This document shows positions 3,060 to 38,732 of a stretch of 42,964 nt of DNA, one piece after another. How positions within the stretch are numbered: position 1 is the first letter of the stretch; the number at the start of each line of letters is the position of its first letter. The stretch lies in the IMG/VR virus record IMGVR_UViG_3300031277_000007, positions 1 to 42,964 of that record. The stretch is one strand, 5' to 3'. The translations under genes were made by a program, and so were the position numbers. The stretch is from a virus. The notes under the pieces were generated by a model that did not search any database, was not told the DNA's origin, and saw nothing but the letters and a program-made list of their open reading frames with translations.

Positions 3060-3475
3060 GATGGGCCATCGTCTCCTATGGTGGGCGCACCGACGGCGAG
3101 CACAAGTCCCTCGACCTCGTATGTATGACGCCAGTAGTGCCCGATCCTGATCTTCTCGGGACTGGGCTTGAAGTTCTTCAGCACGACGGTCAGCTGGCGC
3201 CCGAAATGGTCGAAGATGTAGATGCGACCATGACCGTACGTCCACCCCCTGAGCGCCTCGTAGTGAGCCGCATCCTTGATGATGCCACTGAAAGACCAGT
3301 TGGCCGGCTCGGCCATACCCTCTTGTAGCAACACCTGGCCATCGATGGCGGTCGTGGCCAAGGCAGTGATAGAACGCGCAGGAAACGGTGAACTCATGGT
3401 CTGCGGGTTCCAGGGAAGCGTGTAAATCACAGATGGAAAGGCGGGGTCCTGGAACGTCCAGCGCAACACGCTCAT
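3056..3475 (-). CDS. Distal tail-type minor tail protein
   Basis: This is a 139-residue protein beginning MSVLRWTFQDPAFPSVIYTLPWNPQTMSS. It lies directly after the tape measure gene and shares one base with its stop (TGATG). Position, length and the pattern of an N-terminal beta sandwich followed by WSFSGIIKDAAHYEALRGW match the distal-tail (Dit-like) or first minor tail proteins of siphoviruses, which form a ring joining tail tube and tip. The aromatic Y-G-HGRIYIFDHFGRQLTV segment is typical of this group. No enzymatic motif is visible. It is followed at a four-base overlap by the larger hub-like protein, with which it probably assembles. Confidence 0.7.
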   Translation of the reverse strand: MSVLRWTFQDPAFPSVIYTLPWNPQTMSSPFPARSITALATTAIDGQVLLQEGMAEPANWSFSGIIKDAAHYEALRGWTYGHGRIYIFDHFGRQLTVVLKNFKPSPEKIRIGHYWRHTYEVEGLVLAVGAPTIGDDGPS

Positions 3476-6400
3476 CAGATCTTCCGTCCGGTCGTTGCGG
3501 TCACTACCTGCGCACCGGCCCCGAGGTAGGTCCGCAGATACTCGATCACCTGTTCGAACGAAGCGCCGTTGATGTTCACCGTGTTGCCCGAGTGCGAGTA
3601 GTCCGCAACGGAAGTTGCGGCCCCTGCTTTGACGGCCCGACGCACCTCGTAAATGGTGGGCAGCTCGATGTCACCAATATTGAACTGGCCCTGCATCTCC
3701 TCGGCGGCCGACTTCAGGAGCTTGTCGACCTCGTCGAGCTGCTCCGTCTGCTGGCGAGTCTTTCCGGCGATGGCGGCCAGGCGGTCGTGCTCGGACTGCA
3801 AGTAACTGATATAGGCAGAATGGGAGATGCGCCCAAGGTCCTCTGCGGTCTGCACATCGCTGATGCGCTGCTGGAACGCCGATGCCTCCTGCTGCGCCTG
3901 AGCGTTGCGCAAGTCGAGCTTGGCCTGATCGACAACATCAGCACCGTCTCCGCGAGACTGAGCGGCCCGAAGGTTGTCCATGGCCTTCTGCACATCCAGG
4001 GCCGCTTGCTCCACCGGGTTCGTCAGATCTGAAGACAACCTGCGCTGCCGGTCCGCCTGTTGACGCTCCTGATCGGCCAGTTCCATCTGTGCCTGACGCA
4101 GATTCCCCAACGCGTCGTAGTATCCCTGGGTATCACCCTTCTGGTCGCCGAGCGTGCGCCTTGCGTTGCCCAGAGCTACCCGCGCCTGTAGCAACCCGCT
4201 GCTCAAGCCGGCTATACCGGCAGAATCCTGCGCGTTGGCCAGCTCGGTGTACGCCTGGGCCAGTGCGATCTGCGAGGACCACACCTCTTTCTGCGCGTCA
4301 GCATAACCCGGAGTCTCCCGCTTCTGATCGCCGAGCGTGCGCCTCGCGTTGTCCAAAGCTACCCGCGCCTGGCCCACGCTGTCGCGCGGGTCCACGGCTG
4401 CACCGGCCTGTGCGTTGGCCAATGCGGTCTGCGACTCGGCGTACTGGACCTGCGAATCCAACCATGCCCCCAGCGCCTGGTTGTACTCGTCGCTGTCCAC
4501 CTTTGTCGTCGCCAACATGTTGTATGCGTTGTTCATGGCGACCCGCGCCTTGCCGACCGTGTCGCGCGAGTCGACGGCGGCACTGGCTGCACTGTTGCCC
4601 GTCTGCACCTGCAATACGAAGTAGTTGTGCTTCGCCTCATCGAGTGCGATCTGCGCCTCGGCCTGGGCGGCCGTGTCGACCGCGGCTTCGTCGAAGTTGC
4701 GCTGCGCAACCACGACCGCCCCCTCGGCCTTGCCGGTCGTGTCGTTGGGGGCATATGCCGACATCTGCTGAGCATTGAGCCTGGCAACCTCCGCCTGACG
4801 CTGCTGCCTCGTTATGGTGTTCTGCTGGCCAGAAAGGTCTTGGAGCTGCTTCAACTCCTCGGGTGTGTAGACCGCGGTCGGGGCCCCGTTGCTGCTGGAC
4901 CCGCGAGGACGACCCACCCCCTGCGCGAGCACGGTTGCGATCTGTTGATTGACAGCATCTGCTTCCGCCGCGAGACGCCCGAGCACATCGTCCTCAGGTA
5001 TTAGCGTCTCTTCATAAGCGAGAAGGGACTGAATCGCCGCGACCCTATCGCTGGCCTGCTGGCGCTCCGCAGCGCTTATGGCCTCGTCGGTGTCGCGCAG
5101 GTCTCGCAAGAACGAGCTGACATCCGTGCCCTCGGCCGACATAGACCGGATCACGCCCAACATCCCCGCCCGGCCCTTCTCCAGGTAATCCAACTCCGCC
5201 TGTGTGCCCTGCTGGACTGAGCCGAGCCTGGAGGCCCCCTCCGTCCTTGCCTGCTCGCCATAGGTCGGCATGTTGCGCAGGACTTCACCGATGTTCGCCT
5301 TGGTGACTTCGCCGCCGAAGGTGGAGAACATGTCGCGCAGACCGCCCACCAGCCCGAGTTCTATGTCCTCGGCAAGCCCGGCGGCGTCAAGCTGGCCCCA
5401 CAACTCTTCCCCGTACATTCCAGGCAGCGCATCCTTGAGCCTCTTGTCTATCCTGTCGGATTCCTCCTGGGTGATGATGCCGTCGGCAGCATACTTGGTG
5501 AGCTGCTGCTCCAACAGGGCTGTCAACTGGTCAGTGACGTCCGGCATCGCCTCCTCCGCCAAGGAGGCAAGATCTTCCAGCCGGGACGATGTGCCGAATA
5601 GCCCTGTTCGTTCACTTTCACCAGTATCGCTCCTTACCCGCCACATGGTCGGACCAAACTCCTGCATCCGTCCCTGGACCTTCGCGCTGAACTGCTGCGC
5701 CGCGGCACCAACCTCACGGGGGTCTATGACCGCAACAGCATTGGCGGCCCCTGCCGCCGCCTCGGAGAAGGTGAATAGCGCGTCGTTGAGCATGGCGAGA
5801 CGCTCGGAGGCGTTATACCCCCGCTTCTCCAAGTCGGCGAACGCCTCCTCCAGGCCGGTGGCGGAGAAGTCCGTGAAGGCCCGTGATGCATTCTGGTCCT
5901 CCAACTGCGCCTGCGCCTCCGCAAGGGCGTTGGCGATGGCCTCCGCGCGATCGGCGATCTTCGTCGCCTCCTCGGCCTGCCCCCCCTCGAACAGCGAGGT
6001 GATCAAACGTTCCGGCAGTTCGAAGACCGCGCCGGCACTCACCCCCCCCATCCCGGCCTTTTCGATCGACGAGGCCACCCCGCGGGCGGCACCGGCAACA
6101 TCGCGCAATGCCTCTTCGTTCTTAGCGCCCGATATCTGAGAGCGCAGGTCCGAAACCTTGCTGCGCCCCTCTACCACGTTACTAATGCCCTTGCCGATGC
6201 CCGTCGCCAGAGCCGCTATCGCAGCCGCTGACAGCAACATGCCCGTCCCCGTCATACCGGTCGCACCCTTGGCGGCGTTCAACACCCCCGTCCCGCCCTG
6301 CGCTGCCGCACGGGCCTCCTTGGATAGGCGGAACATGCTGCCCTGTCCGAACACCCTGCCGGGGAGAGCGGTGGCCCCTGACGCCATGGTGGCGAGGCGC

Positions 6401-9288
6401 GCATTACGAATCTGGTTCGACCCCTTCCCCACGCCAAGGAGTTCTTGGGTGGCGACGGCCGCCATCGTGGCCTTGGCGCCGATCCCGGCACCAAGGGCCG
6501 TCCCGGCGATCTTGCCACCGATGGCGGTCCCTGCGATCTTGCTGGCGAATGCCGTTCCGGCAATAAGCTTGGACGCCAGGTAGATCTCACCCAGGGCGAT
6601 GGCCACGCTGCGCAGTGGACGGGGCAACATGTTGAAGAAACCCAACACCTCGTTGCCAGCGGCGACCATGTTCTGCGTCGCAATCAGGAGCAGCCCGAGC
6701 CAGTCCAGGATGCCCGCATCCACAAGCGCCTGACCGAACGCCAAGGCGTCGGAGCCCAGTACAATCAGCTGGTTGCCCAAGGCCTTCATGGCCTTTCCGG
6801 CGACCTCGGCCCCAAGCCCCTCGGCGGCGCCAGCCCCCCCTGCGAGTTCATTGATGCGCGCCGCGTCCTTCACCATACGCGTCGCCACCGTGGCGGAGCC
6901 GCCCTTGCCGAACAGACCTGCGAACTCTTCGAGCTGCTTGTCGGTGATGTCCTTCTGTTGAGAGACCGCCTCGAAGATATCTGCGGTGTTCATGCCCTTC
7001 GTGTCTATTCCGAAGATCTCAGCCGCACGGGGGGCGACAGTGGCAGACCCGCGAGAAAGCACCTGTCGGAACTGGCCGGCAGTGGAGGACGGGTTCTGCC
7101 CGGTCGTGGTGGAGACCTGGGCGACCAGCGCCATGAGTTCTTGGGGATCAAAGCCCGCAGTCTGCGCCAGGGTGGCCAGATCAGCGGACGCGGAGATCAG
7201 CTCCGTGCTCGACTGTCCCGTCTGGCGGGAGATGTACGTGATAGAGTCCTCCAGCTCGGACAGCCGGTCCACACCCCATCCGAACGCCCGCAACGCTCCG
7301 AGCAGCTGGGTCTGCACGGCGATGGGCTCGGCCCCAGACACGCGCGCCACCCGCGTGGAGACCTCTGCGGCCGTCGTCGCCGCATGCTCCTGAACCGCCT
7401 GCGAAGACTCCGTAACGCCAAGGAGACCCATGGCCTTGGTGCCAAGTTCGACACCGACGGCATTCGTGTAGCCCATACTCACGGCCGTTGTGGCCAATGT
7501 GCTAGCTAGCCCCTCATCCTCCTCGGCTGTACGTCCGGTGACGACCTCCAGGTTGGTCAGCGCCATATCGTAGGCGATGGTAGCTTGTGTGACCTTGCCT
7601 ATGACCTGCTCTAGGGCCGACAGCGCCCGGTAGGCCGCGCCATAGGACAGTGCGATACGGGCCGTCTGCCCCATCATCTCCGACCAGGGACGTCCCTGGT
7701 CGCCTCCGCCACTCCAGCCGGTCTTGAAGCCTGCGCGGAAACCGCCACCCCCTCCAGTCCCTGCCGCCGCCCCTCCAGCCCCTGCCGCCGCCCCTCCGGC
7801 CCCTGCCGCCACCCCTCCGGCCTCCTGTACCGCCCGATAGCCGGGTTGGGCGTAAAGATTCCGCGCCCGCTGTACCGGCTGAGAGAATGCTTCCTCCAGC
7901 TGACGGGCACGGACGCTATAGGCCCTAGCTACAGCCCTGCCCTCCTTGGGGGTGAGCACGACCTTACGATTGGCGGCCAGCTCCGACTGCTGATACTTCA
8001 CGTTCTGTTTGCCGACCCGCACCTGTTCGCGCTGGACCTCTGCCCACACGCGGGACTGCCGCTCCTGCTCACGGATCTGCTCAAGTGACCGAGTGACTCC
8101 ACCCTTGAAGGAGGGAACGGCAGCCAAAGTCTGGCCAGACTGGAGTTGGGCAGGGGTGAACCTGGCCTGAGCCCGCTGGAGAAGCTCCGCTTGAGCCGCC
8201 TGACGGGCCGGCTCACTGGCCGAAGTCGCCAGACGCGATGCACGCACCTGGGCAACAAAGGCCTGCTCGCGAACTTGAATCTCCTGTTTGCGCATCAAGG
8301 CAAGAGCCTGACCGCTCCCTACTGAACGCGATGCAGGGATCTGCGGAAGTGCACCCTGTGCGATCCGGGACGACTTGGACTGCTCACCAAGCACCTTGCT
8401 GGACGTCGCCAGGTTCAACTGTGCCTGTTGCAAACCTTTGTACGTCCGGGTCTGCCGTTCCGCCAGCGCCCGAGTCTCCCCGACGGACTGCCTAGTCAGA
8501 CCGCCCTGCGGCAAGGCAAACTGACTCACGCCACCCGCGTGGGTAAGTGGGGCCAACTGACCCGCTCCACCCCCTACGCCACCCTGCCCGCGACCCGCCT
8601 CGAACTGCCTCAACTGCGCAACGAGCGCCTGCCGCTGGCGAACCTGCTCCCTCTCCGGGCTCCGCATAGCCCTCTGGAGCAAAGACTTGGCAGCCGTAAC
8701 CGAGGTGCCCATCTGTTCGGCGATCTGCGAACGGGTGAGCCCACGCCCCTGAAGGACGAGCGCTTCGGTACGGCGCGCGGAAGCCCTTGCCTCACGCACG
8801 CTTCTGGACTCGGCACCCTTCCGCACCCGCTCCAAGCTCTTGTGCGCCCGAGTCAAGCCGGTCAACGCCTGGGTCTCCTTGACGAACTGACCTGTGCCGA
8901 CGGCTTTTGCCTGCTGCAAGCCCTGCACCCGCTGCAAGCCCTTGTACGTCTGAGTCAAGCCAGTCAACGCCTGGGTCGCCTTGGTGGACGACAACTGGAG
9001 TTCCCTGACCGACTGTGGGGTCAGACCGGCAGGTCGTTGCAAAGCCCCCAGGGTCCCTTTGCCGACAGGCGTCGGCACGTTGATACCAGCCAGGGCCCTG
9101 TTCGCCTCCGCGGCCATCTGGCGCGCCTTCGCCACGAACATGTTCGGGTTGAGAGAACCTGCGGCCTGACGGAACGCCCCCTGCACTCCGGGAGCGAGAG
9201 CACGAAACGCACCGAGGTACTGTTGCATCCCCTGGACGGCCTGTGAGCCGTCAACGCCAAGGATTAGTTCTTCGCGATCCTCCGCCAC
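3475..9288 (-). CDS. Tape measure protein
   Basis: This is the longest gene in the window, 1937 residues from the GTG at 9288, which has GAGGAG about seven bases upstream. A second GTG at 9327 is possible but has no good site and would overlap the chaperone gene. Length, alpha-helical composition and position between tail chaperones and tail-tip genes identify it. It sets tail length, and 1937 residues suggests a tail near 290 nm at about 0.15 nm per residue. Visible regions are a Gln/Arg-rich N-terminal coiled-coil third with an HTH-like stretch near residues 184-207, a Gly-Ala linker coded by 21-bp DNA repeats (7751-7820), hydrophobic segments near residues 890-1030, and C-terminal helical repeats (4130-4600) sharing the ARVALDNARRTLGDQK motif. 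Confidence 0.95.
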   Translation of the reverse strand: MAEDREELILGVDGSQAVQGMQQYLGAFRALAPGVQGAFRQAAGSLNPNMFVAKARQMAAEANRALAGINVPTPVGKGTLGALQRPAGLTPQSVRELQLSSTKATQALTGLTQTYKGLQRVQGLQQAKAVGTGQFVKETQALTGLTRAHKSLERVRKGAESRSVREARASARRTEALVLQGRGLTRSQIAEQMGTSVTAAKSLLQRAMRSPEREQVRQRQALVAQLRQFEAGRGQGGVGGGAGQLAPLTHAGGVSQFALPQGGLTRQSVGETRALAERQTRTYKGLQQAQLNLATSSKVLGEQSKSSRIAQGALPQIPASRSVGSGQALALMRKQEIQVREQAFVAQVRASRLATSASEPARQAAQAELLQRAQARFTPAQLQSGQTLAAVPSFKGGVTRSLEQIREQERQSRVWAEVQREQVRVGKQNVKYQQSELAANRKVVLTPKEGRAVARAYSVRARQLEEAFSQPVQRARNLYAQPGYRAVQEAGGVAAGAGGAAAGAGGAAAGTGGGGGFRAGFKTGWSGGGDQGRPWSEMMGQTARIALSYGAAYRALSALEQVIGKVTQATIAYDMALTNLEVVTGRTAEEDEGLASTLATTAVSMGYTNAVGVELGTKAMGLLGVTESSQAVQEHAATTAAEVSTRVARVSGAEPIAVQTQLLGALRAFGWGVDRLSELEDSITYISRQTGQSSTELISASADLATLAQTAGFDPQELMALVAQVSTTTGQNPSSTAGQFRQVLSRGSATVAPRAAEIFGIDTKGMNTADIFEAVSQQKDITDKQLEEFAGLFGKGGSATVATRMVKDAARINELAGGAGAAEGLGAEVAGKAMKALGNQLIVLGSDALAFGQALVDAGILDWLGLLLIATQNMVAAGNEVLGFFNMLPRPLRSVAIALGEIYLASKLIAGTAFASKIAGTAIGGKIAGTALGAGIGAKATMAAVATQELLGVGKGSNQIRNARLATMASGATALPGRVFGQGSMFRLSKEARAAAQGGTGVLNAAKGATGMTGTGMLLSAAAIAALATGIGKGISNVVEGRSKVSDLRSQISGAKNEEALRDVAGAARGVASSIEKAGMGGVSAGAVFELPERLITSLFEGGQAEEATKIADRAEAIANALAEAQAQLEDQNASRAFTDFSATGLEEAFADLEKRGYNASERLAMLNDALFTFSEAAAGAANAVAVIDPREVGAAAQQFSAKVQGRMQEFGPTMWRVRSDTGESERTGLFGTSSRLEDLASLAEEAMPDVTDQLTALLEQQLTKYAADGIITQEESDRIDKRLKDALPGMYGEELWGQLDAAGLAEDIELGLVGGLRDMFSTFGGEVTKANIGEVLRNMPTYGEQARTEGASRLGSVQQGTQAELDYLEKGRAGMLGVIRSMSAEGTDVSSFLRDLRDTDEAISAAERQQASDRVAAIQSLLAYEETLIPEDDVLGRLAAEADAVNQQIATVLAQGVGRPRGSSSNGAPTAVYTPEELKQLQDLSGQQNTITRQQRQAEVARLNAQQMSAYAPNDTTGKAEGAVVVAQRNFDEAAVDTAAQAEAQIALDEAKHNYFVLQVQTGNSAASAAVDSRDTVGKARVAMNNAYNMLATTKVDSDEYNQALGAWLDSQVQYAESQTALANAQAGAAVDPRDSVGQARVALDNARRTLGDQKRETPGYADAQKEVWSSQIALAQAYTELANAQDSAGIAGLSSGLLQARVALGNARRTLGDQKGDTQGYYDALGNLRQAQMELADQERQQADRQRRLSSDLTNPVEQAALDVQKAMDNLRAAQSRGDGADVVDQAKLDLRNAQAQQEASAFQQRISDVQTAEDLGRISHSAYISYLQSEHDRLAAIAGKTRQQTEQLDEVDKLLKSAAEEMQGQFNIGDIELPTIYEVRRAVKAGAATSVADYSHSGNTVNINGASFEQVIEYLRTYLGAGAQVVTATTGRKI
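7751..7820. repeat. 21-bp tandem repeat inside the tape measure gene
   Basis: Three near-identical 21-bp units (7751-7771, 7772-7792, 7793-7813) plus a partial fourth read CCTCC-AG/GG-CCCCTGCCGCC with one or two substitutions. On the minus strand they code for a Gly-Ala-rich linker (GAGGAAAGAGGAAAG). The unit is a multiple of three, so gain or loss of copies keeps the frame and changes protein length by seven residues. This is a likely slippage hot spot. Confidence 0.85.
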
Positions 9289-9310
9289 CGCCTGCTCCTC
9301 GCCTGAAAAG

Positions 9311-10416
9311 TCAATCCCGCAGCGCACTCACCTCGGGGTCGTGTGTATACCTCTCCCCGTCCATTTCCCTGTCGTCGGGAATCGACTCGGTACGACCGGC
9401 CGCACGGTCCTTACGACGCTGCCTGACCGCGGCAAACCACTCGTCCAGGCGCTCGGACATACCCCAGATCCGCCTAGGAGGTTGCTCGTCGTCCGGAAGG
9501 GACTCCATCCATCCCAGGACCGTCAGTGCCGCGTTGACCGCGAAGACGAGGTCCCAACCCGCCCTCTGGACGTCGCCACCCGGGTAGATGGAACTGAGGC
9601 CTCCGGCTTGCTTTGCTGCTCCGACGACGAGGAGGAATCCGTCGGAGCGTCCGAGTTTCCCGCTTCCTTTTGTGACATATTCACCCGGTCCAAGGCCGAG
9701 ACCACACACTCAAGAAGGCCGTCCGGAAGGGTCCGCACCTGAGTGCGATCTTCGAGCATGCGCTCACCCTTCTCAACAACCTCCTTGCCGTCCTTCTGGC
9801 GCACCTCGCCAGCACAGAAAGCAAAGTAGATGTCGGTCTGCTGGCGGGCCGTGAGAAACTCCCCGCTCGCCTGGTTCTTTATGAAGCCTTCGAGCCATGT
9901 CTGCTCAACAGCCTGACGATCAACCTTGGCCTCCTGGCTCAACTCCCGGCGAAGCTCGCAGATCAGTCGCTCCTGCTCCTCGCCAAGCGCCCTGTAGAAG
10001 TCGACCTGAACCTCCTCCAGGGCCGCTCGCTCCTCCGGCCTGGCATCCGGAGCCAACACCTGCGCCCGATCCAGTAGGACAAGCCGGTCGGCCCAATCCT
10101 TACGCGCACGCACCTCGTCATGAGCCTTCATGAACAGGTCGTTGCCACGCCCAAGGATGATCGCCTCGACAAGCTCATCCAGCCCCAGGCCCCTGCCCGT
10201 CGCTTCGACAGCCCGGCGCTCCTTGGAGCCCGGCCTGTACATTTCCAGATAGAGGGCTCGGGCGACGCGCCCGTCCATGATGGCTTCCTCGTGCTCGAAG
10301 CCGTTCGGCTTGTGCACATATACCCACTCGGGCTCCTTACCCTCGGGGGCAAGGTTGAGGGGCTCGCCCTCCTCGAAGAGTTCGATAGCCCGTCGCAGCT
10401 TCGCCTGATTCGCCAT
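9311..10416 (-). CDS. Tail assembly chaperone, long -1 frameshift product (gpGT-like)
   Basis: The product reads the short chaperone for 254 codons, slips back one base on GGGAAAC (9655-9661), and continues in the frame ending at 9311 for 114 more residues, 368 in all. The second frame (LGRSDGFLLVVGAAKQAGG to YTHDPEVSALRD) has no convincing start of its own and runs open through the slip site. Two overlapping frames just before the tape measure gene, joined by a canonical slippery heptamer, are the hallmark of the lambda G/GT pair. These chaperones bind tape measure protein and recruit tail-tube subunits, and are absent from the finished virion. The relative amounts of the two forms cannot be read from sequence. 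Confidence 0.9.
9523..10416 (-). CDS. Tail assembly chaperone, short product (gpG-like)
   Basis: The zero-frame product is 297 residues, from ATG at 10416 with GGAG six bases upstream; upstream in-frame codons back to 10476 are shadow. It is acidic and helical: MANQAKLRRAIELFEEGEPLNL, then EWVYVHKPNGFEHEEA, later LLDRAQVLAPDARPEERAALEE. Its last 43 residues, after the slip point, are low complexity (SSSSSEQQSKPE), as expected for a tail that only needs to terminate. It lies between the terminator after the major tail protein and the tape measure gene. The role as tape measure chaperone follows from gene order and the overlapping -1 frame. Confidence 0.88.
   Translation of the reverse strand: MANQAKLRRAIELFEEGEPLNLAPEGKEPEWVYVHKPNGFEHEEAIMDGRVARALYLEMYRPGSKERRAVEATGRGLGLDELVEAIILGRGNDLFMKAHDEVRARKDWADRLVLLDRAQVLAPDARPEERAALEEVQVDFYRALGEEQERLICELRRELSQEAKVDRQAVEQTWLEGFIKNQASGEFLTARQQTDIYFAFCAGEVRQKDGKEVVEKGERMLEDRTQVRTLPDGLLECVVSALDRVNMSQKEAGNSDAPTDSSSSSEQQSKPEASVPSTRVATSRGRVGTSSSRSTRH
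9655..9661 (-). other. -1 ribosomal frameshift site GGGAAAC
   Basis: Read on the minus strand the zero-frame codons are GCG GGA AAC, giving the heptamer G GGA AAC (pattern X XXY YYZ). Both tRNAs can re-pair one base back as GGG AAA. The downstream zero frame stops at 9523 and the -1 frame stops at 9311, a net -1 shift. This matches the classic tail-chaperone slip sites of siphoviruses. Confidence 0.92.
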
Positions 10417-18688: not shown

Positions 18689-19657
18689 TCAGCTGCTCGA
18701 TCCGTCCAAGACGATCCGACGGGCAACCTCTGGATGGGTCACGACGGCGTTCACGTCGCGCATGCTCTTGTAGTGACGGTAGTCGACCTTGTTCTCCATC
18801 CACTGGCGGACAACCGAGCCGCCCCAGCTGACGAAGAGACCGACGCCACCACCGATGACCCACAGCTCGTCATCGGGAAGGAAGGCCACACCATCCTCGT
18901 CCTGGTAGTTGTCCAGGGTCACGACATCGGCGCCGTAGTAGGTACCGAGCACGCCGGTCCGGGCGATGGAGTCCCGCGTGTTGTCGTTGAAGCTCGTGAA
19001 GTCCAAGATCTCCTGGATGGCACGACGACGACCCACAATGGAGATCCCATTGACCATGCGAGCGTTCGACGGGATCGGCGTGTCGGCCACATCGGTCACC
19101 GCGTCGCGCAGCGTGCTCTCGTCGAACGAGCCCGAGATGTAGTATGGCGAACTCACGTCGATCGCAGTGCCGAGAACGCCGAGGATGCGGCGGTAGGTCT
19201 CCGTCTCCTCCTGCAACTTCGCCAGCGGAATGAGCTGTGCGATCGTCTCGGCATAGTCGTTGCGGACGTTGCGGTCGAACTCCCGGACGTGCCAGCCGAG
19301 GCTATCCTTCGGGATCTCCCACAGGCTCTGCCGCAGCTGAGACTCGTCGACCTCGCCAGAGCGGCTGGTCCAGAAAGCGCGTAGACCACGACGCTCCTTC
19401 AGAACAACCTGCTCGTCCTCGCCGACGAACTTGCTAGGGAAGAAGCTGGGGAACTTCGTCTCGTGCCTGAACCCCCAGTCGAGTGTCTCGGCGATGACCG
19501 CAGCCTGTTCGACATGCCAAGACTCGTGCTGCCAGTTCTCCTTGGCTTCGGCGTTGAGCGCGGCCTTGGCCTCCTCGAACTTCACCTCCTTTTCGGCGGT
19601 GAGATCCAACTTGGCCGCCTTGGCGACCTCCCTCAAGATCGGGACCCTGGTTGACAT
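18689..19657 (-). CDS. Major capsid protein
   Basis: This is a 322-residue protein starting MSTRVPILREVAKAAKLDL. The ATG at 19657 is chosen because GGGAGG lies seven bases upstream; the ATG at 19663 would place that site too close. It has a helical N-terminal arm, then an HK97-type pattern: ETLDWGFRHETKFPSFFPS, a helical SSPYYISGSFDESTLRDAV region, and a C-terminal ADVVTLDNYQDEDGVAFLPDDELWVIGG followed by a strand and helix. Position after scaffold and decoration genes, and strong terminator placement, agree. No separate delta domain longer than the arm is obvious. Confidence 0.88.
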   Translation of the reverse strand: MSTRVPILREVAKAAKLDLTAEKEVKFEEAKAALNAEAKENWQHESWHVEQAAVIAETLDWGFRHETKFPSFFPSKFVGEDEQVVLKERRGLRAFWTSRSGEVDESQLRQSLWEIPKDSLGWHVREFDRNVRNDYAETIAQLIPLAKLQEETETYRRILGVLGTAIDVSSPYYISGSFDESTLRDAVTDVADTPIPSNARMVNGISIVGRRRAIQEILDFTSFNDNTRDSIARTGVLGTYYGADVVTLDNYQDEDGVAFLPDDELWVIGGGVGLFVSWGGSVVRQWMENKVDYRHYKSMRDVNAVVTHPEVARRIVLDGSSS

Positions 19658-31995: not shown

Positions 31996-32247
31996 TCACG
32001 ATCGACGCTGCTTACGACGCGCGGCCTCATGCCTGCGCTGTGCGGGCCCAAGCCCCCCCCAGGTGCCATGTTCGGCCAGATCCGGGTTTGCCAGAGCCCA
32101 GTCCAGGCACTCTTCGCGTTGAAAACAAGCCGCACACACCCTCTTGGGGTTGCCGATGGCCTTGTTGTTCTCGTCTGGGAAGAAGATTCTCGGGTCAACC
32201 TGAGCGCACAGACCCTCCCCCGAAAGAGAGTCGAGTATCGTGCGCAT
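31996..32247 (-). CDS. WhiB-like transcription factor
   Basis: This 83-residue protein begins MRTILDSLSGEGLCAQVDPR. The four iron-sulfur cysteines of the Wbl family are present at 14, 38, 41 and 47 (GLC, CAAC, EEC). The GTWGGL turn follows at 61-66, and the C-terminus is basic (RRHEAARRKQRRS), suitable for DNA contact. Wbl proteins are actinobacterial [4Fe-4S] proteins that bind sigma region 4 and redirect RNA polymerase. Its start shares a base with the stop of the phage sigma gene (TGATG), so the two are made together, which suggests that they may also work together. Confidence 0.9.
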   Translation of the reverse strand: MRTILDSLSGEGLCAQVDPRIFFPDENNKAIGNPKRVCAACFQREECLDWALANPDLAEHGTWGGLGPAQRRHEAARRKQRRS

Positions 32248-32987
32248 CAGATACCCGCCAGTTCCAGCCGCAGACGCCCTAGCGCCCCGCTCAGGACCTC
32301 TGGAGAAGCCTTCTGGCCCTGAAGGTACCGGCAGCACAGGACCTCCTGATCGTCAGCACAGAGACGCCCCAAGGCCGCTGCACAACGCTGGGGGATCAGC
32401 CGGGTAACGGCCTCGGCCTCCGTGTCAGCCAGACCCACCCAAGACGACTCCCCATGCTGGTCGTCCTCGGAGTCTCCGTCGAATGCCGTGCCGCCCACGG
32501 GGACGATCTGCTTGATGGACGCGAGGTCCTCTCGGGGTACTCCCAGGTACTCGGCCAGCTCTGCTCGCGAAGGCGTGCGCCCTAGTTCCTGGGCAAGGAC
32601 TCCCTCGGCGTCCCGCTGCTGCTGCAACAACCGCCACGCCTGACGGCTGGCCCAGCTCTGATTCGGCGACTTCAGACCGTCCAGGATGGCGCCGCGGATG
32701 CGCATGGAGGCGAAGGCGTAGAACTGGCCGTGCCAGTTCTTCCCGTCGGACGCGCTGGGGTCGAACTTGCGGATCGCATCGAAGAGGCCGAACCTCGCCC
32801 AGGAGATCAGGTCGTCCATCTCCACAGCCTCTGGAACCTTCTTGCTCCTGGCCAGACGATCAGCCCGCCACAAGTAGATCTCCGCGAGTCTGGCCACGGC
32901 CCCCTGGTCGCCCTTGGCCTTCCGCGCCCACAGGTCTGGCAGCTCCGCCTCGTCTACACGGCTACGAGACGACGGCTCGCTCACCAT
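32247..32987 (-). CDS. Phage sigma factor (FliA/WhiG type) with truncated region 4
   Basis: This is a 246-residue protein from ATG at 32987 (MVSEPSSRSRVDEAELPDLW). Region 2 spans about 25-105: VEMDDLISWARFGLFDAIRKFD (58-76) and FYAFASMRIRGAILDGL (89-105), typical of the FliA/WhiG subgroup. Region 3 is near 113-165 with GRTPSRAELAEYLGV. Region 4 starts at 195 (DDQEVLCCRYLQGQ, 212-225), but the usual HTH of about 28 residues is replaced by SPEVLSGALGRLRLELAGI to the end. The -35-recognising part of region 4.2 is therefore mostly missing. It should bind core polymerase and recognise a -10 element but may need help at -35. The WhiB-like gene overlaps its stop. Confidence 0.82.
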   Translation of the reverse strand: MVSEPSSRSRVDEAELPDLWARKAKGDQGAVARLAEIYLWRADRLARSKKVPEAVEMDDLISWARFGLFDAIRKFDPSASDGKNWHGQFYAFASMRIRGAILDGLKSPNQSWASRQAWRLLQQQRDAEGVLAQELGRTPSRAELAEYLGVPREDLASIKQIVPVGGTAFDGDSEDDQHGESSWVGLADTEAEAVTRLIPQRCAAALGRLCADDQEVLCCRYLQGQKASPEVLSGALGRLRLELAGI

Positions 32988-33265
32988 CCGACACCACCCT
33001 TCGGCCTCCGCCAGGGATTCGGACCGCCACTCAGCCAAGGGTCGTCCTGCGCCGACCAAAGCTCCACCAGTCGCGAACCCGGTAGGCGCACCAGCGACCT
33101 GACGTCGTCCTGCCCCTCGTGAACCAGGACCAGATAGGCAACGGCGTAGCCGGCGGAACCACACACATGACGCATCCGAATCTGGATGGTCAGGTAATGC
33201 GAGGCCGACAGGCGGATGGGCAGCCGGGCCGCAAGACGGAACGCGAGACGCTCTGCGAATCTCAT
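32981..33265 (-). CDS. Small protein upstream of the sigma gene, 94 aa
   Basis: The protein starts MRFAERLAFRLAARLPIRLSA. An Arg-rich amphipathic N-terminus is followed by strands (HYLTIQIRMRHVCG, AYLVLVHEGQDDVRSLVRLPG) and a Trp/Pro-rich end (DDPWLSGGPNPWRRPKGG). It overlaps its upstream neighbour by ATGA and the sigma start by seven bases, so it belongs to the sigma/WhiB operon. Not recognised. A regulator of the sigma factor is a guess from position only. Confidence 0.65.
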   Translation of the reverse strand: MRFAERLAFRLAARLPIRLSASHYLTIQIRMRHVCGSAGYAVAYLVLVHEGQDDVRSLVRLPGSRLVELWSAQDDPWLSGGPNPWRRPKGGVGW

Positions 33266-33730: not shown

Positions 33731-36115
33731 CTAGCGCTCGTACGACGACGGCCGGGGAAAGAGTTGGCGAAGCTGTGCGCCAGCCTGACCGGCGAAACTG
33801 ACGGCATTCGTCGAAACCCAGTCGCCCTCAGGAGCGGGCTCAGAAGCCGTACGCACCTTCACGTCCGGATGGAGAGTCGGACTGTCGCCGCAGATACTGC
33901 CGTACAACGTTTGCCAAAGAAGGCGCTCGCGCTGAGAAACCGGGAGCCGCAGCCCGTCAAGCTGCTCGGCCAGGGTCTTCCGATTGATGAGCATCGGGAT
34001 GTGCATATCACGGCACAGAGCGTCCATGCCAACGATCTTGAGAGTTGACGCTATGGCCCTGGCGCGCTGAGCGCTGCGAGGCGGCAACTCCGCCAGCAAG
34101 CCGCAGTGGAGCGCCGGAAGCTTGGTCAAGGGCCGCAGGGCGTACATGTCGTCGTCGGCGATGATGACGCTGGGCGTGAGATCGTCGTTGCGGAGAATGG
34201 ACCGCAGGATCGCATAGGCCTGCGCGTGCTGGTATCCGGAGAGCGAAGTGGACACCCTGGGACACGTGAGCCAGGGAACACGTACGCCTGCGGTATAGAG
34301 CCCCTTGTGCGGAACGTTGGCCCCAAGGGAACGCACGGCATAACGAAGCTCCTCGGTCGAGCGTCCGACCCGGATGACCAGATCGTACTTACCAGACACC
34401 TCGGCAGCTACCGGCGGTGGCCTCCGCTCCCTCGTCGTGACCGGAGCGCGCTTTTTGGGCACAGGGAGCTGGCTGGCAAGGTCCCGGTAGACGGGCAATA
34501 GGGCCGCACGACTGTAGGCCCCGGAGTGGTAGCGCTGGACATGATCGTGGCCGAGCGCGCCGTACTCGGCCCGTATGGACTCGTCCATGAGGGCGCGGAT
34601 AGCGTCCCCTATACTCGCGCGCTCAGCCTCGTAGAACGGCATCCGAGGCCCGAAGATCCCAGCCATGAGTTCGCGCGTCCTAGGCGCCACGCCGGCGACG
34701 ACAGGGATGCCCATAGCCCACGCCTCGACGGCGTTACAGCCATAGCCTCCGGGGTAGCCCCCGGCCTCAACCTGGTCGTACCAGATGTCACACGTGGCCT
34801 TGACGGCCAACACCTGCGCCCAAGTGCTGCGCTCGACCATGACGACCTCGACATCCAAGCCCTTGCAGGCCGCAAGGAAGGCGTCCGTCGACTTCAGGGC
34901 CCGGTTCGTCGGCGCATGTCCCACGCGCAGACGTCCGCCCCTAGGCTTGCGTATCGCAAGCAGATCGGGAATCCGACATGGGGCCGGCACCCATACGAGA
35001 TTCGTGCCGAGGTCGAACATGTCTATCGTAGATATGACGGCCCGCTGACCGCGGCTAGCGACATCGGCATTCATGGCCACATGTTCGTCGCGAAACTCTG
35101 TGCCGTGATGATGAAGGACGAACGGCCTGTTGGGCTGCCCGCGATCCAGAAACACCCGCAAGGTGCGCAAGTTGTTGTGCAAGTGAAGGACCTGCGCCTG
35201 CCCCCACGTCTCGTAGATCTCTGGGTAGGCATACGGGCGACTGGTGTCGTTCCAGAAGGTGCGCCCCGCACTCGGGTACCGAATGTAGTTGTCCGACAAC
35301 ATCGCGGTCCCGAAGTTGACCAGCGCATGCTGCTGAAACGCCTGGAAAAGACCCCAGGAGACGCCGCCGGTATCAGCCCCGGCATTGATGGACAGAACGT
35401 CCAGACGACCCCCTGGCGGGCTCTGGCGCTCCAGAGGGCACAGGTCCGGGAACCGTGAGCGCACGAGGGTCCCGGCCGCACCCTCCCAGGAGTCGCTGTT
35501 ACTGGACAGCCAGGGGCCGGCATAGTCCGATTCGTACTCAACGCGCACAGCATGAGTGCCATACGCCTTCGGGTCACAGATCTGCTCGCCGCCAAGGCCC
35601 GCGAGGTTGCCGTATAACGACCAGATCCAAGCGTCGGCCGGCTGGTCCTGCGCAATATCCAGCGCCCTGAGCATCACGGCCTTGTGAACGACCTTGGGGA
35701 CATGTAGGTCGTAGTTCAGCGGGCTGGCAATGCCCAGGCCCTCAAGCAGGGCGGCCGCCTCATGGGCCCGCAGGTCGTACGGGGGCGCCGAGTGGAAGTC
35801 CACAAGGCGCCCCCGGTGGTAAGACGGCAACTCTAGTAGAGGGTGCAGCAGGAACATGTCGTCATCGCAAGCTACAAACGGGTCGCTAATCCGATCGTCC
35901 AGGCACGCCATCCGCAAGGCCCGCTGGACAGCCAAGAACCGCCCGTCATTCCCGTGGCCGGCAGTGCCGGATGCGCCGATGACATCGCCGGCAAACCACC
36001 CAGGAGGTTCACCGACGACCCACACGGAGCGATGCGGCAGGTTCATCGTGACGGACCGGAGAGAGTGCCGGAACTCCTCATTCTCACCAGGCCGCACCAG
36101 CCATACCAAGTCCAC
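33731..36115 (-). CDS. Three-domain glycosyltransferase (GT-A-like / GT-B / GT-A-like)
   Basis: This is a 794-residue protein from a GTG at 36115 with GGAGG six bases upstream. Residues 1-230 resemble stealth/capsule-type transferases: DLVWLVRPGENEEFRHSLRS and VACDDDMFLLHP, with the metal-binding DDD at 84-86. Residues 235-550 are a GT-B (GT4-like) enzyme: LSINAGADTGGVSWGLF, RVGHAPTNRALKSTDAFLAA, and YGCNAVEAWAMGIPVVAG with the usual nucleotide-sugar Glu. After a Pro/Arg linker (555-572), residues 576-794 repeat the first domain (DLVIRVGRSTEELRYAVRSL, IIADDDMYALRP with DDD at 654-656). N- and C-domains also share H-P/H-I helix and LYG motifs. It is the last gene of a sugar cassette and probably transfers several sugars to one acceptor. 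Confidence 0.82.
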   Translation of the reverse strand: MDLVWLVRPGENEEFRHSLRSVTMNLPHRSVWVVGEPPGWFAGDVIGASGTAGHGNDGRFLAVQRALRMACLDDRISDPFVACDDDMFLLHPLLELPSYHRGRLVDFHSAPPYDLRAHEAAALLEGLGIASPLNYDLHVPKVVHKAVMLRALDIAQDQPADAWIWSLYGNLAGLGGEQICDPKAYGTHAVRVEYESDYAGPWLSSNSDSWEGAAGTLVRSRFPDLCPLERQSPPGGRLDVLSINAGADTGGVSWGLFQAFQQHALVNFGTAMLSDNYIRYPSAGRTFWNDTSRPYAYPEIYETWGQAQVLHLHNNLRTLRVFLDRGQPNRPFVLHHHGTEFRDEHVAMNADVASRGQRAVISTIDMFDLGTNLVWVPAPCRIPDLLAIRKPRGGRLRVGHAPTNRALKSTDAFLAACKGLDVEVVMVERSTWAQVLAVKATCDIWYDQVEAGGYPGGYGCNAVEAWAMGIPVVAGVAPRTRELMAGIFGPRMPFYEAERASIGDAIRALMDESIRAEYGALGHDHVQRYHSGAYSRAALLPVYRDLASQLPVPKKRAPVTTRERRPPPVAAEVSGKYDLVIRVGRSTEELRYAVRSLGANVPHKGLYTAGVRVPWLTCPRVSTSLSGYQHAQAYAILRSILRNDDLTPSVIIADDDMYALRPLTKLPALHCGLLAELPPRSAQRARAIASTLKIVGMDALCRDMHIPMLINRKTLAEQLDGLRLPVSQRERLLWQTLYGSICGDSPTLHPDVKVRTASEPAPEGDWVSTNAVSFAGQAGAQLRQLFPRPSSYER

Positions 36116-36130
36116 GCCGTACCTCCAGGG

Positions 36131-37135
36131 TCAAGCCCGAAGATCGACGAACTCCCGACTCGCCGACTCGGTCATCGCCTCGGCAACCCTCACCGTAGCC
36201 AGCCCCTCTTCCATGGCCACAATGCCCGGCTGATCCACACAGCCCGTCCGGCGGAAGGCCAGCACCGCATCACGGAACGCCTCGTGCTCCGTCCTCAAAG
36301 GCTCAGGCTTGGCGATGGCGTAACGAATGACGTCGCCCTCGGTGACCCCGCGGAACTGGGCAACCATGTCGCGGACGACTGGCACCGAGCCGTTGCGGTA
36401 GAACGTCAGGTCGCTGGTGAGAGTGTCGGCCACAAGGGCCCCCAGCTCGCCCGTGATGACGGTCAGGCGCTCCTTCAAGGGACTCAGCCAGTTCACCAGG
36501 TGGTTGGCCACGATGCCGCCCTCAAGCTCGCCGGTCGCAGCCACCAGGTCCTCGTACTCGCGTCCACTCTTGTGAGCGGTCCGCGCGCTGATCCCCACGT
36601 ACGGCCTCTGGGTCACCCAGGACGTGGAGTCAATGTCGTGCGAAGCCAGATCCATGATGACGCCGACGTCGGAGATGCGGGCCGGGAACGGCCCCTGACG
36701 CCTGGTTGCTACCTGGTAGACCGCCCCGAGCGCTCCGGCCTCCACGCGGGCCCGAGCGGCCTGTAGGGCCGGGTTGTAGCGCTCGATGTGACCCACCGCG
36801 CCGATCAGACCAGCGCTGGCGAATGCCTCGGTCATCGTCTTCGCAGTGGACACGTCGTAGCTCAGCGGCTTCTCTACGAGGGTATGCACGCCGGCCTCAG
36901 CCAGCCAGAGAGCAATTCCCTTGTGGAACGCCGTCGGAGCCGCCACCACCGCGTAGTCCAAGTTCCGGGCGATCAGCTCAGTGAGGCTGCATGTCAGATA
37001 GGGGCCAGCAACGCCGTACGGGTCACCGGCCGGATCAAACACTCCCGCGAGTTCCACGCCGTCAAGGCTCTTCAGCACACGCGCGTGATGACGCCCCATG
37101 GAGCCTGCCCCAACAAGTCCTGCTCTCAACATCAT
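36131..37135 (-). CDS. Gfo/Idh/MocA dehydrogenase, WbpB/WlbA-like
   Basis: This 334-residue protein starts MMLRAGLVGAGSMGRHHARV, overlapping the upstream stop by ATGA. The NAD-binding G-x-G-x-x-G is at 9-14, the EKP motif at 88-90, GHIERYNP at 115-122, and D162/H166 (IMDLASHDID) are where the catalytic Asp/His of the family lie. Gfo/Idh enzymes next to a DegT aminotransferase and hexapeptide acetyltransferase usually oxidise C3 of a UDP-GlcNAc-type sugar to a 3-keto form. That is the likely step here. The ATG pair at the start allows a one-codon uncertainty. Confidence 0.83.
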   Translation of the reverse strand: MMLRAGLVGAGSMGRHHARVLKSLDGVELAGVFDPAGDPYGVAGPYLTCSLTELIARNLDYAVVAAPTAFHKGIALWLAEAGVHTLVEKPLSYDVSTAKTMTEAFASAGLIGAVGHIERYNPALQAARARVEAGALGAVYQVATRRQGPFPARISDVGVIMDLASHDIDSTSWVTQRPYVGISARTAHKSGREYEDLVAATGELEGGIVANHLVNWLSPLKERLTVITGELGALVADTLTSDLTFYRNGSVPVVRDMVAQFRGVTEGDVIRYAIAKPEPLRTEHEAFRDAVLAFRRTGCVDQPGIVAMEEGLATVRVAEAMTESASREFVDLRA

Positions 37136-38223
37136 GCCCCTGCCCTAGCTAGTGCGTTGACCGCGGTCGCGATCCTGTCCAGATGGTGCTGCTTCACCGA
37201 CGGGTGCACCGGGAGCGACAAGCACTCGGCAGCCGCCTTCACCGTCTCCGGCAGGTACGTAGCAGGCTGGCGGAACGGCGCGAGCAGGTGAACCGGCGTC
37301 GGGTAGAACATGCCAGACCCGATGTCGTACTCCTCGCGCAGCGCCCTGGCGAACCCGTCCCGGTCCTGCGGAACCCGGATCGTGTACTGATGGAAGACGT
37401 GCACAGCACCCTCGGCAACCGGGGGCGCCGTCACACCTTCGAGGTTGGCCGACAAGAAGGCCGCGTTCTCCTGACGCTTCTGCGTCCACGCGTCCACCTT
37501 GGTCAACTGGACCCGGCCGATCGCCGCGTGGACGTCCGTCATCCGATAGTTGAACCCGACCACCTCGTTCTTGTACGCCTGCTCCATCCCCTGGTTCCGG
37601 TACAACCGCATCAACCGCTCGATCTCCGGGGTCGCCACCGACACCATGCCCCCCTCACCGGAGGTCATGTTCTTGGTCGGGTAGAGCGAGAACATCGCGA
37701 ACGAGCCGAACGCACCGACAGGAGTGCCGCCAAGCGACGCCCCATGCGCCTGCGCCGCGTCCTCGAACAGTTGCAGGCCGTGCTTGTCAGCAATCGCCTG
37801 CATCGCCGGCATGTTGGCCGGGTGCCCATACAGGTGCACCGGCATGATCCCGACGGTCCGGTTGGTGATCCTACCCACAACACGATAAGGGTCCAGGCAG
37901 AAGGTGCCTGGATCTATGTCGACAAACACTGGCGTTGCCCCGGTCAGGGCCACAGCGTTGGCCGTCGCGGCGAACGTGAAGGACGGGACGATGACCTCAT
38001 CGCCAGGGCCAACACCGCAGGCAAGCAGGCCGACGTGCAGCCCCGCGGTACCTGAGCTGACGGCCACGCAGGCGCGCCCAGGAACGAAGTGGTCCGCGAA
38101 CTCCTCCTCGAACAGCTTCACCTCCGGGCCCTGTGCCAGCATCCCAGAGCGCAGAACGCGCTCGACCTCCATACACTCCTCGTAGCCGATCAACGGCTTC
38201 GCTGGCGGAATGAACTCGTTCAT
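37132..38223 (-). CDS. DegT/DnrJ/EryC1/StrS aminotransferase, WbpE-like
   Basis: This 363-residue protein starts MNEFIPPAKPLIGYEECMEV. The ATG at 38223 is preferred because GGGAG lies five bases upstream; one at 38235 overlaps the previous stop and would add four residues. Family features are AVSSGTAGLHVGLLA (56-68), PSFTFAATANAVALTGATPVF, LFEDAAQAHGAS (152-163), and SLYPTKNMTSGEGGM with PLP-lysine K184. The enzyme transfers an amino group, normally from glutamate, to a keto-sugar. With the dehydrogenase downstream and the acetyltransferase upstream it would make a 3-amino-3-deoxy sugar. Confidence 0.87.
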   Translation of the reverse strand: MNEFIPPAKPLIGYEECMEVERVLRSGMLAQGPEVKLFEEEFADHFVPGRACVAVSSGTAGLHVGLLACGVGPGDEVIVPSFTFAATANAVALTGATPVFVDIDPGTFCLDPYRVVGRITNRTVGIMPVHLYGHPANMPAMQAIADKHGLQLFEDAAQAHGASLGGTPVGAFGSFAMFSLYPTKNMTSGEGGMVSVATPEIERLMRLYRNQGMEQAYKNEVVGFNYRMTDVHAAIGRVQLTKVDAWTQKRQENAAFLSANLEGVTAPPVAEGAVHVFHQYTIRVPQDRDGFARALREEYDIGSGMFYPTPVHLLAPFRQPATYLPETVKAAAECLSLPVHPSVKQHHLDRIATAVNALARAGA

Positions 38224-38234
38224 GTCGTCTCCCA

Positions 38235-38732
38235 TCAGGCTTCAATCCAGGCGATCACACGCGCCGGAACCCCGGCGACAATGGCATGGGGTGGCACGTC
38301 CCTGGTGACAACCGCACCAGCAGCCACCATGGCCCAGCGACCGATGGTCACAGGGGCCACACAGATGGCGCCAGCCCCGATGGAGGCGCCCTCCTTGACC
38401 GTGACACCCACGGACTTCCAGTCGGAGGCGCTCTTGATCGTCCCGTCCGGATTGACGGCCCGCGGGTACTGGTCATTGGTAAGAATGGCACCAGGGCCAA
38501 TGAAGACACCGTCCTCCAGCTCGGCCGGCTCATACACGAGCGCCGAGTTCTGGAGCTTGCAGTTGCGCCCGATCTTCACGCCCTGGCCGACGTAGACACC
38601 ACGGCCGACGATGCACCCGTCCCCGAGGGTCGCCAGCTTCCTGATCTGCGCCAAGGGCCATACGGTCACCCCCTCGCCAAGTACAGCCTGCGGAGAGACG
38701 TCTGCGCCGTCGTGGACCTTCGTCGCGCTCAA
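38235..38732 (-). CDS. Hexapeptide-repeat sugar N-acetyltransferase, WbpD-like
   Basis: This is a 165-residue protein from a TTG at 38732 whose codon overlaps the stop of a small upstream gene (TTGA); codons further up are Arg-rich shadow. The left-handed beta-helix repeats are clear: [80 protein letters not shown], and [17 protein letters not shown]. The NDQYPRA loop is typical of UDP-3-amino-sugar N-acetyltransferases. It would acetylate the amino group made by the neighbouring aminotransferase. Confidence 0.85.

Follow-up and report, generated by a model that had tools for sequence, protein, structure and literature searches.

The virus record IMGVR_UViG_3300031277_000007 of IMG/VR, analysed here over its entire length of 42,964 bases (positions 1-42,964, 64% GC; hereafter the window), encodes a WhiG/FliA-type phage sigma factor that lacks helix alpha3 of the helix-turn-helix (HTH) in region 4.2 and has very probably lost -35 promoter recognition via this region. 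On balance, the protein is probably a functional descendant of the WhiG/FliA family that dispenses with -35 reading, serves promoters of the -10/extended -10 type and works in a manner resembling T4 gp55.

Genomic context of the sigma gene

The sigma gene (32247-32987, minus strand, 246 aa) is part of a small operon of overlapping minus-strand genes. It is preceded by a 94-aa gene ('LPG..LVELW', 32981-33265, minus strand), which overlaps its start by 7 bases, and is followed by a gene for an 83-aa WhiB-like (Wbl) protein (31996-32247, minus strand), which starts inside the sigma stop codon with an overlap of one base (TGA/ATG, 'TGATG'). The coordinates, strands and one-base overlap recorded for this gene pair in a first-pass annotation were correct. 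The Wbl protein is probably co-translated with the sigma factor, an arrangement found in the window phage alone.

Relatives of the window were reached solely via terminase alignment with phage GX15bay (Caudovirales), a distant relative with terminase, portal-like and tail proteins that are ~25-40% identical to those of the window, and 26 further related IMG/VR contigs were retrieved via the terminase. Searches of IMG/VR proteins with the sigma or the Wbl sequence on its own gave no match, and a scan of genome contigs returned no relative. GX15bay itself yielded no sigma match, and its 'transcription factor' genes are not Wbl genes. Matches to human-gut phages covered mainly region 2 and were set aside. 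The nearest relatives by sigma factor (G001, G003, G027 and G064) are 80-87 kb in size, and the window may thus represent about half of a genome.

Domain structure and the deletion in region 4.2

Pfam, NCBIfam and PDB profiles group the sigma factor with FliA/WhiG, and its nearest solved relative is WhiG of S. venezuelae (6pfv/6pfj, profile E 7e-83). The match to TIGR02479 (2e-21) lies below the curated whole-protein cut-off of that model. In view of its altered region 4.2, we consider the protein to be derived from the FliA/WhiG (group 3) family rather than a standard member of it. The sigma fold was confirmed by a PDB fold search, with whole-chain TM-scores of 0.3-0.4 that are low due to the flexible linkage of the domains. 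Regions 2 and 3, which had been annotated as intact, both exceed their Pfam cut-offs (Sigma70_r2 and Sigma70_r3), if barely, the latter with 25.8 bits vs a cut-off of 25.3. Region 2 (residues 34-107; 32667-32888, minus strand), the part for -10 recognition and core binding, is strongly conserved among the orthologs described below and modelled by AlphaFold with a pLDDT of mostly ~90 or more. Region 3 (residues 108-165; 32493-32666, minus strand), as delimited by Pfam Sigma70_r3 and AlphaFold, leads into a flexible 3-4 linker (residues 166-188; 32424-32492, minus strand) with a pLDDT <50 over its whole length. Region 4 consists of alpha1 and alpha2 (the 4.1 part, residues 189-221; 32325-32423, minus strand), modelled with high pLDDT as helices 189-207 and 211-221, the deletion junction (residues 222-228; 32304-32324, minus strand) and a remnant of the recognition helix alpha4 (residues 229-245; 32253-32303, minus strand), which AlphaFold predicts as a helix over the same residues. 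Pfam Sigma70_r4 matched at positions 1-20 only, below its cut-off, and the region 4 HMM score of the window sigma factor was 0.0 bits.

The deletion is internal and in frame and comprises ~13 residues. It removes alpha3 of the HTH as well as the beginning of alpha4, the part that reads -35 DNA in ordinary sigma factors. From Y221, a conserved tyrosine that closes alpha2, to the second half of alpha4 the window protein has 15 residues, whereas the same stretch spans 28 residues (27-31) in 44 of 49 aligned phage sigma factors; it measures 21 residues in G001 and 22, 22 and 25 in three further phage sigma factors (L098, L100 and L106, respectively). WhiG/FliA (sigma28; 6pfv, 6pfj, 1rp3, 9wsm) and the phage sigma factor agree in regions 2 and 3 and in the first part of region 4. 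They differ in that the phage protein has lost alpha3 together with the segment of alpha4 that reads DNA, and in that the sequence of its region 4 is poorly conserved. The first-pass annotation had described an 18-residue end after RYLQGQ that replaced the HTH. We counted 21 residues, and 'ALGRLRLEL' within them corresponds in the alignment to the last part of the recognition helix in relatives with an intact HTH (ALNMLR/ALLRLR). The statement that region 4.2 is mostly missing stands, but the region was not swapped for an unrelated end, as the end of alpha4 is retained. A hidden or compensating frameshift was rejected because the other frames at the junction encode no HTH helix. For both the window and the G001 sigma factor, AlphaFold predicts with high confidence a three-helix region 4 without alpha3.

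A second copy of the window phage was not found and a single sequence of it is known, which would be compatible with an assembly or sequencing artefact confined to this one metagenomic contig. Such an error is highly improbable, however, given that the 39 absent bases are in frame and correspond to precisely one structural element, which is independently missing in G001. As the gene lies in a conserved neighbourhood and G001 has lost the same helix, the deletion goes beyond chance.

Phylogeny and selection

Four orthologs of the sigma factor were identified, in G001, G003, G027 and, as L129, in record G064. Together with the window protein they form one clade (bootstrap/SH-aLRT 100/99) with the topology ((window,G003),(L129,(G001,G027))), in which window+G003 is supported by 93/86 and G001+G027 by 100/99. 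The 94-aa gene upstream of the sigma gene is kept in G027 and G003 (tblastn E 2e-5 and 3e-4, respectively), which identifies the sigma locus as orthologous. Three of the five clade members (G003, L129 and G027) have retained an HTH of normal length, and alpha3 is absent in the window and G001. A topology joining the two deleted forms was rejected (p-AU 0.004) and the tree requires two changes, so that two independent losses of the helix are, on the evidence of the alignment and tree, the most likely history. The comparison of homologs for a conserved truncation, proposed along with the original annotation, thus argues against a local accident, as G001 is without this helix too; the alternative that homologs have a full region 4.2 applies to G003, L129 and G027 and is false for G001.

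The G001 and G027 proteins share 92% identity in region 2 (dN/dS 0.08) and 34% in region 4.2 (dN/dS 0.58), values to be read with the caveat that dS is near saturation in some pairs and that region 4.2 is short (25-38 codons). The ratio of dN in region 4.2 to dN in region 2, as a rough value, was 12.5, 5.7, 4.1 and 3.3 in four clade pairs, whereas seven control pairs, drawn from other phage sigma factors, gave 0.6-3.0; the 5.7 stems from G027/L129, in which both HTHs are full-length. These substitution patterns place region 2 under purifying selection and leave region 4.2 under little constraint in all five clade members, a setting of generally relaxed constraint in which the -35 reader has eroded repeatedly. 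For G003, L129 and G027, recognition of the -35 element may still be of importance.

The low region 4 HMM scores and the fast evolution of region 4 would also be expected of a decaying gene, or of a degenerate or decoy sigma factor that occupies core polymerase. We consider this rather unlikely: the open reading frame is intact with a coding-type composition up to its end, the neighbouring genes are conserved, and region 2 is under strong purifying selection in the very pair that includes the deleted G001.

Outside the clade, the phage FliA-type sigma factors L098, L100 and L106 (IMG/VR 3300044447_000013, 3300037231_000114 and 3300045391_001077, respectively) likewise have a region 4.2 that is shortened or degenerate. 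Viral sigma factors may commonly lose their -35 reader in this way.

The WhiB-like protein

The window Wbl protein matches the Pfam family Whib (PF02467) with 57.6 bits vs a cut-off of 23.6 (1.9e-15) and contains four cysteines (C14, C38, C41 and C47), FF22-23, the GTWGG motif and a basic tail. Both residues and Pfam match agree with its earlier description as a complete four-Cys Wbl protein with a basic tail. Its nearest solved structure is S. venezuelae WhiB (8dy7, E 9e-13), and it is closest to WhiB proteins of actinophages, including those of mycobacteriophages Ximenita and TM4, which belong to the same family, and of Streptomyces, with up to 52% identity to the Ximenita protein. This relationship indicates an actinobacterial host. 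A published survey of actinophage WhiB proteins makes no mention of sigma genes as neighbours (PMC8612146).

It had been proposed that the Wbl protein could replace the lost HTH, taking over DNA contact in the -35 region and joining the remnant of region 4 in a split promoter-recognition unit. The one-base overlap within a shared operon and the completeness of the Wbl protein, including its basic tail, are in line with such a unit, as is the presence of one Wbl gene in each of the five clade genomes. However, the clade Wbl genes are distal to the sigma genes (76 vs 24 kb in G001, 62 vs 32 in G003 and 52 vs 1 in G027), and those of G001, G003 and G027 share one subtype that differs from that of the window. 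In G064 the Wbl gene is located at 79 kb and the gene right after the sigma gene is not a Wbl gene. Within the clade, adjacency of Wbl and sigma genes is thus unique to the window genome. G001 lost its HTH independently with its sole Wbl gene 52 kb away, and that Wbl protein is of the same subtype as those accompanying the intact HTHs of G003 and G027. Furthermore, WhiB was not detected in the records of L098, L100 and L106, which have eroded HTHs, although these records are perhaps incomplete.

In another group of phages unrelated to this clade (G037, G039 and G065), a Wbl gene lies a short distance upstream of the gene for a WhiG-like sigma factor with an intact HTH. The Wbl proteins of G037 and G039 carry a C-terminal winged-helix-like extension (Wbl-wHTH fusion), and a small SWIM-like gene separates them from the sigma gene in an operon of Wbl-winged-helix fusion, SWIM-like protein and WhiG-like sigma factor (L120, 596-2048; L121, 3019-4671; minus strand). 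This recurrence of a Wbl gene near a WhiG-like sigma gene, with the fused form, favours a shared unit and makes a functional link between Wbl proteins and phage WhiG-type sigma factors possible, yet one that does not track the loss of the HTH: G001 has lost the HTH without adjacency, and G037, G039 and G065 have adjacency with an intact HTH.

The known mode of Wbl binding provides a further argument. Wbl proteins bind region 4 of sigmaA, an interaction that depends on F31, F32 and W76 in WhiB3 and on H516 in sigmaA (PMC10245118). The window Wbl protein has kept the FF and W of this interface and shares the four cysteines, FF, GTWGG and basic tail with WhiB1, WhiB3, WhiB7 and S. venezuelae WhiB (8dy7/8dy9), but it lacks the N-terminal Trp, which is important in WhiB1. 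The partner of these four proteins is the host principal sigma factor with H516; in the phage sigma factor the equivalent residue is Leu241 (by alignment of profile positions 17-242 with residues 288-517 of 7kif_F), so that the known Wbl interface is missing on the phage sigma factor and present on host sigmaA. Taken together, we regard a split unit with the Wbl protein in place of the HTH as quite unlikely. Its strict form, in which the Wbl protein is an obligatory holoenzyme subunit that binds the beta-flap or what is left of region 4 and contacts DNA upstream of the -10 element with its basic tail, is very unlikely; it would amount to an iron-sulfur-controlled two-part sigma factor. The window Wbl protein would instead behave as other Wbl proteins do and not be the missing piece of the phage sigma factor, most probably targeting sigmaA, the principal sigma factor of the host, at its region 4 and dampening or redirecting it.

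Search for other possible substitutes of the -35 reader

T4 gp55, which has no region 4 and acts together with gp33, is likewise a phage-encoded sigma factor without a working -35 reader, and the window protein resembles it in being sigma-like with no -35-reading region 4. gp55 is activated via gp33 and the sliding clamp. Common descent of the two proteins is unsupported, and the window protein would resemble gp55 in its mode of action without belonging to the same family. T4 late promoters lack a -35 element and set a precedent for -10-only recognition (PMC2988020), and gp33 binds to the flap but does not read the sequence of the DNA (PMC2988020, PMC7892883).

A non-Wbl phage protein could supply the flap/-35 function as gp33 does in T4. 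One candidate is the PFEVRPDGSIAHF...REVGS gene, a small, conserved gene encoding P(F/Y)EVRxDGSIAHF...REVGS that directly follows the sigma gene in G001 (L058, 10387-10605), G003 (L059, 9235-9435, minus strand), G027 (L064, 2011-2292) and L129 (after 2649); another is an unrecognised coactivator. As gp33 is structurally unrelated to sigma region 4 (PMC7892883), homology would miss such a factor. The PFEVRPDGSIAHF gene was, however, not found in the window, where loss of the HTH is most complete, and a stand-alone region-4-like protein was not found in the four genomes searched with Pfam models, a search that a gp33-like unrelated protein would escape. We therefore consider a helper of this kind unlikely. 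In Bacillus subtilis SigO-RsoA, the region 2 and region 4 functions reside on two polypeptides (PMC10028694). There, region 4 is located on SigO, whereas in the phage region 4 of the sigma factor is damaged and a partner carrying region 4 was not found.

The possibility that region 4 resides on another gene of the window was rejected. The sole sigma4-like HTH, ALVLQGRGLTRSQIAEQMGTSVTAAKSLLQRAM (8662-8775, minus strand), lies inside a 1950-aa tape-measure-like protein (3475-9327) and matched Sigma70_r4_2 with 29.5 bits (cut-off 25.7) in a Pfam search of the whole record. It places a DNA-binding motif within a protein of tail-length type and is, as far as can be told, no lost piece of the sigma factor.

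Additional genomic features

A dispersed 22-bp inverted repeat, GATTCCTGCTAGCGCAGGAATC, was identified in G001 (L184-L187; e.g. at 18999, 23264 and 27642), G064 and G027. The 80 kb of G001 contain 13 copies, against 0.25 expected from shuffled sequence, G064 has 7 and G027 has 4, and the window has none. Several copies are located in intergenic gaps, one copy precedes the G001 sigma gene by ~340 bp, and the repeat may be operator-like or terminator-like. The window also encodes a 794-aa protein (33731-36115, minus strand) with a phrog_7999 domain (1e-72), to which two stretches of the protein each match over threshold alone, and a glycosyltransferase-like middle. Adjoining it is a gene for a DegT/DnrJ aminotransferase (37132-38235), and the two genes look like a sugar-modification cluster.

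Proposed mode of promoter recognition

We propose that the window protein would have sigma activity as a WhiG/FliA-descended factor in which regions 2 and 3 pick promoters via the -10 or extended -10 sequence. In its reduced form, with alpha1, alpha2 and the end of alpha4, region 4 would at most anchor the sigma factor on the beta-flap of host RNA polymerase, as suggested by a model of the sigma factor alone, without RNA polymerase. Constraint on region 4.2 would have been relaxed clade-wide first, followed by in-frame deletion of the HTH helix at least twice. With crude gene calls, no promoter motif of the sigma factor was found in the window or its relatives; likewise, no T4-late-type motif and no common late-promoter motif upstream of genes were found. 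WhiG-type -10 boxes showed no excess over chance (24 found vs 25 expected).

FliA/WhiG-family sigma factors are usually taken to need both -10 and -35 readers, and T4 gp55 is the known viral exception. The clade described here appears to show the intermediate steps, in which a WhiG-type -35 reader loses constraint and is then deleted repeatedly. Relatives that differ in the HTH alone make viral life without -35 recognition testable, and the window protein would represent a minimal sigma factor for actinobacterial polymerases.
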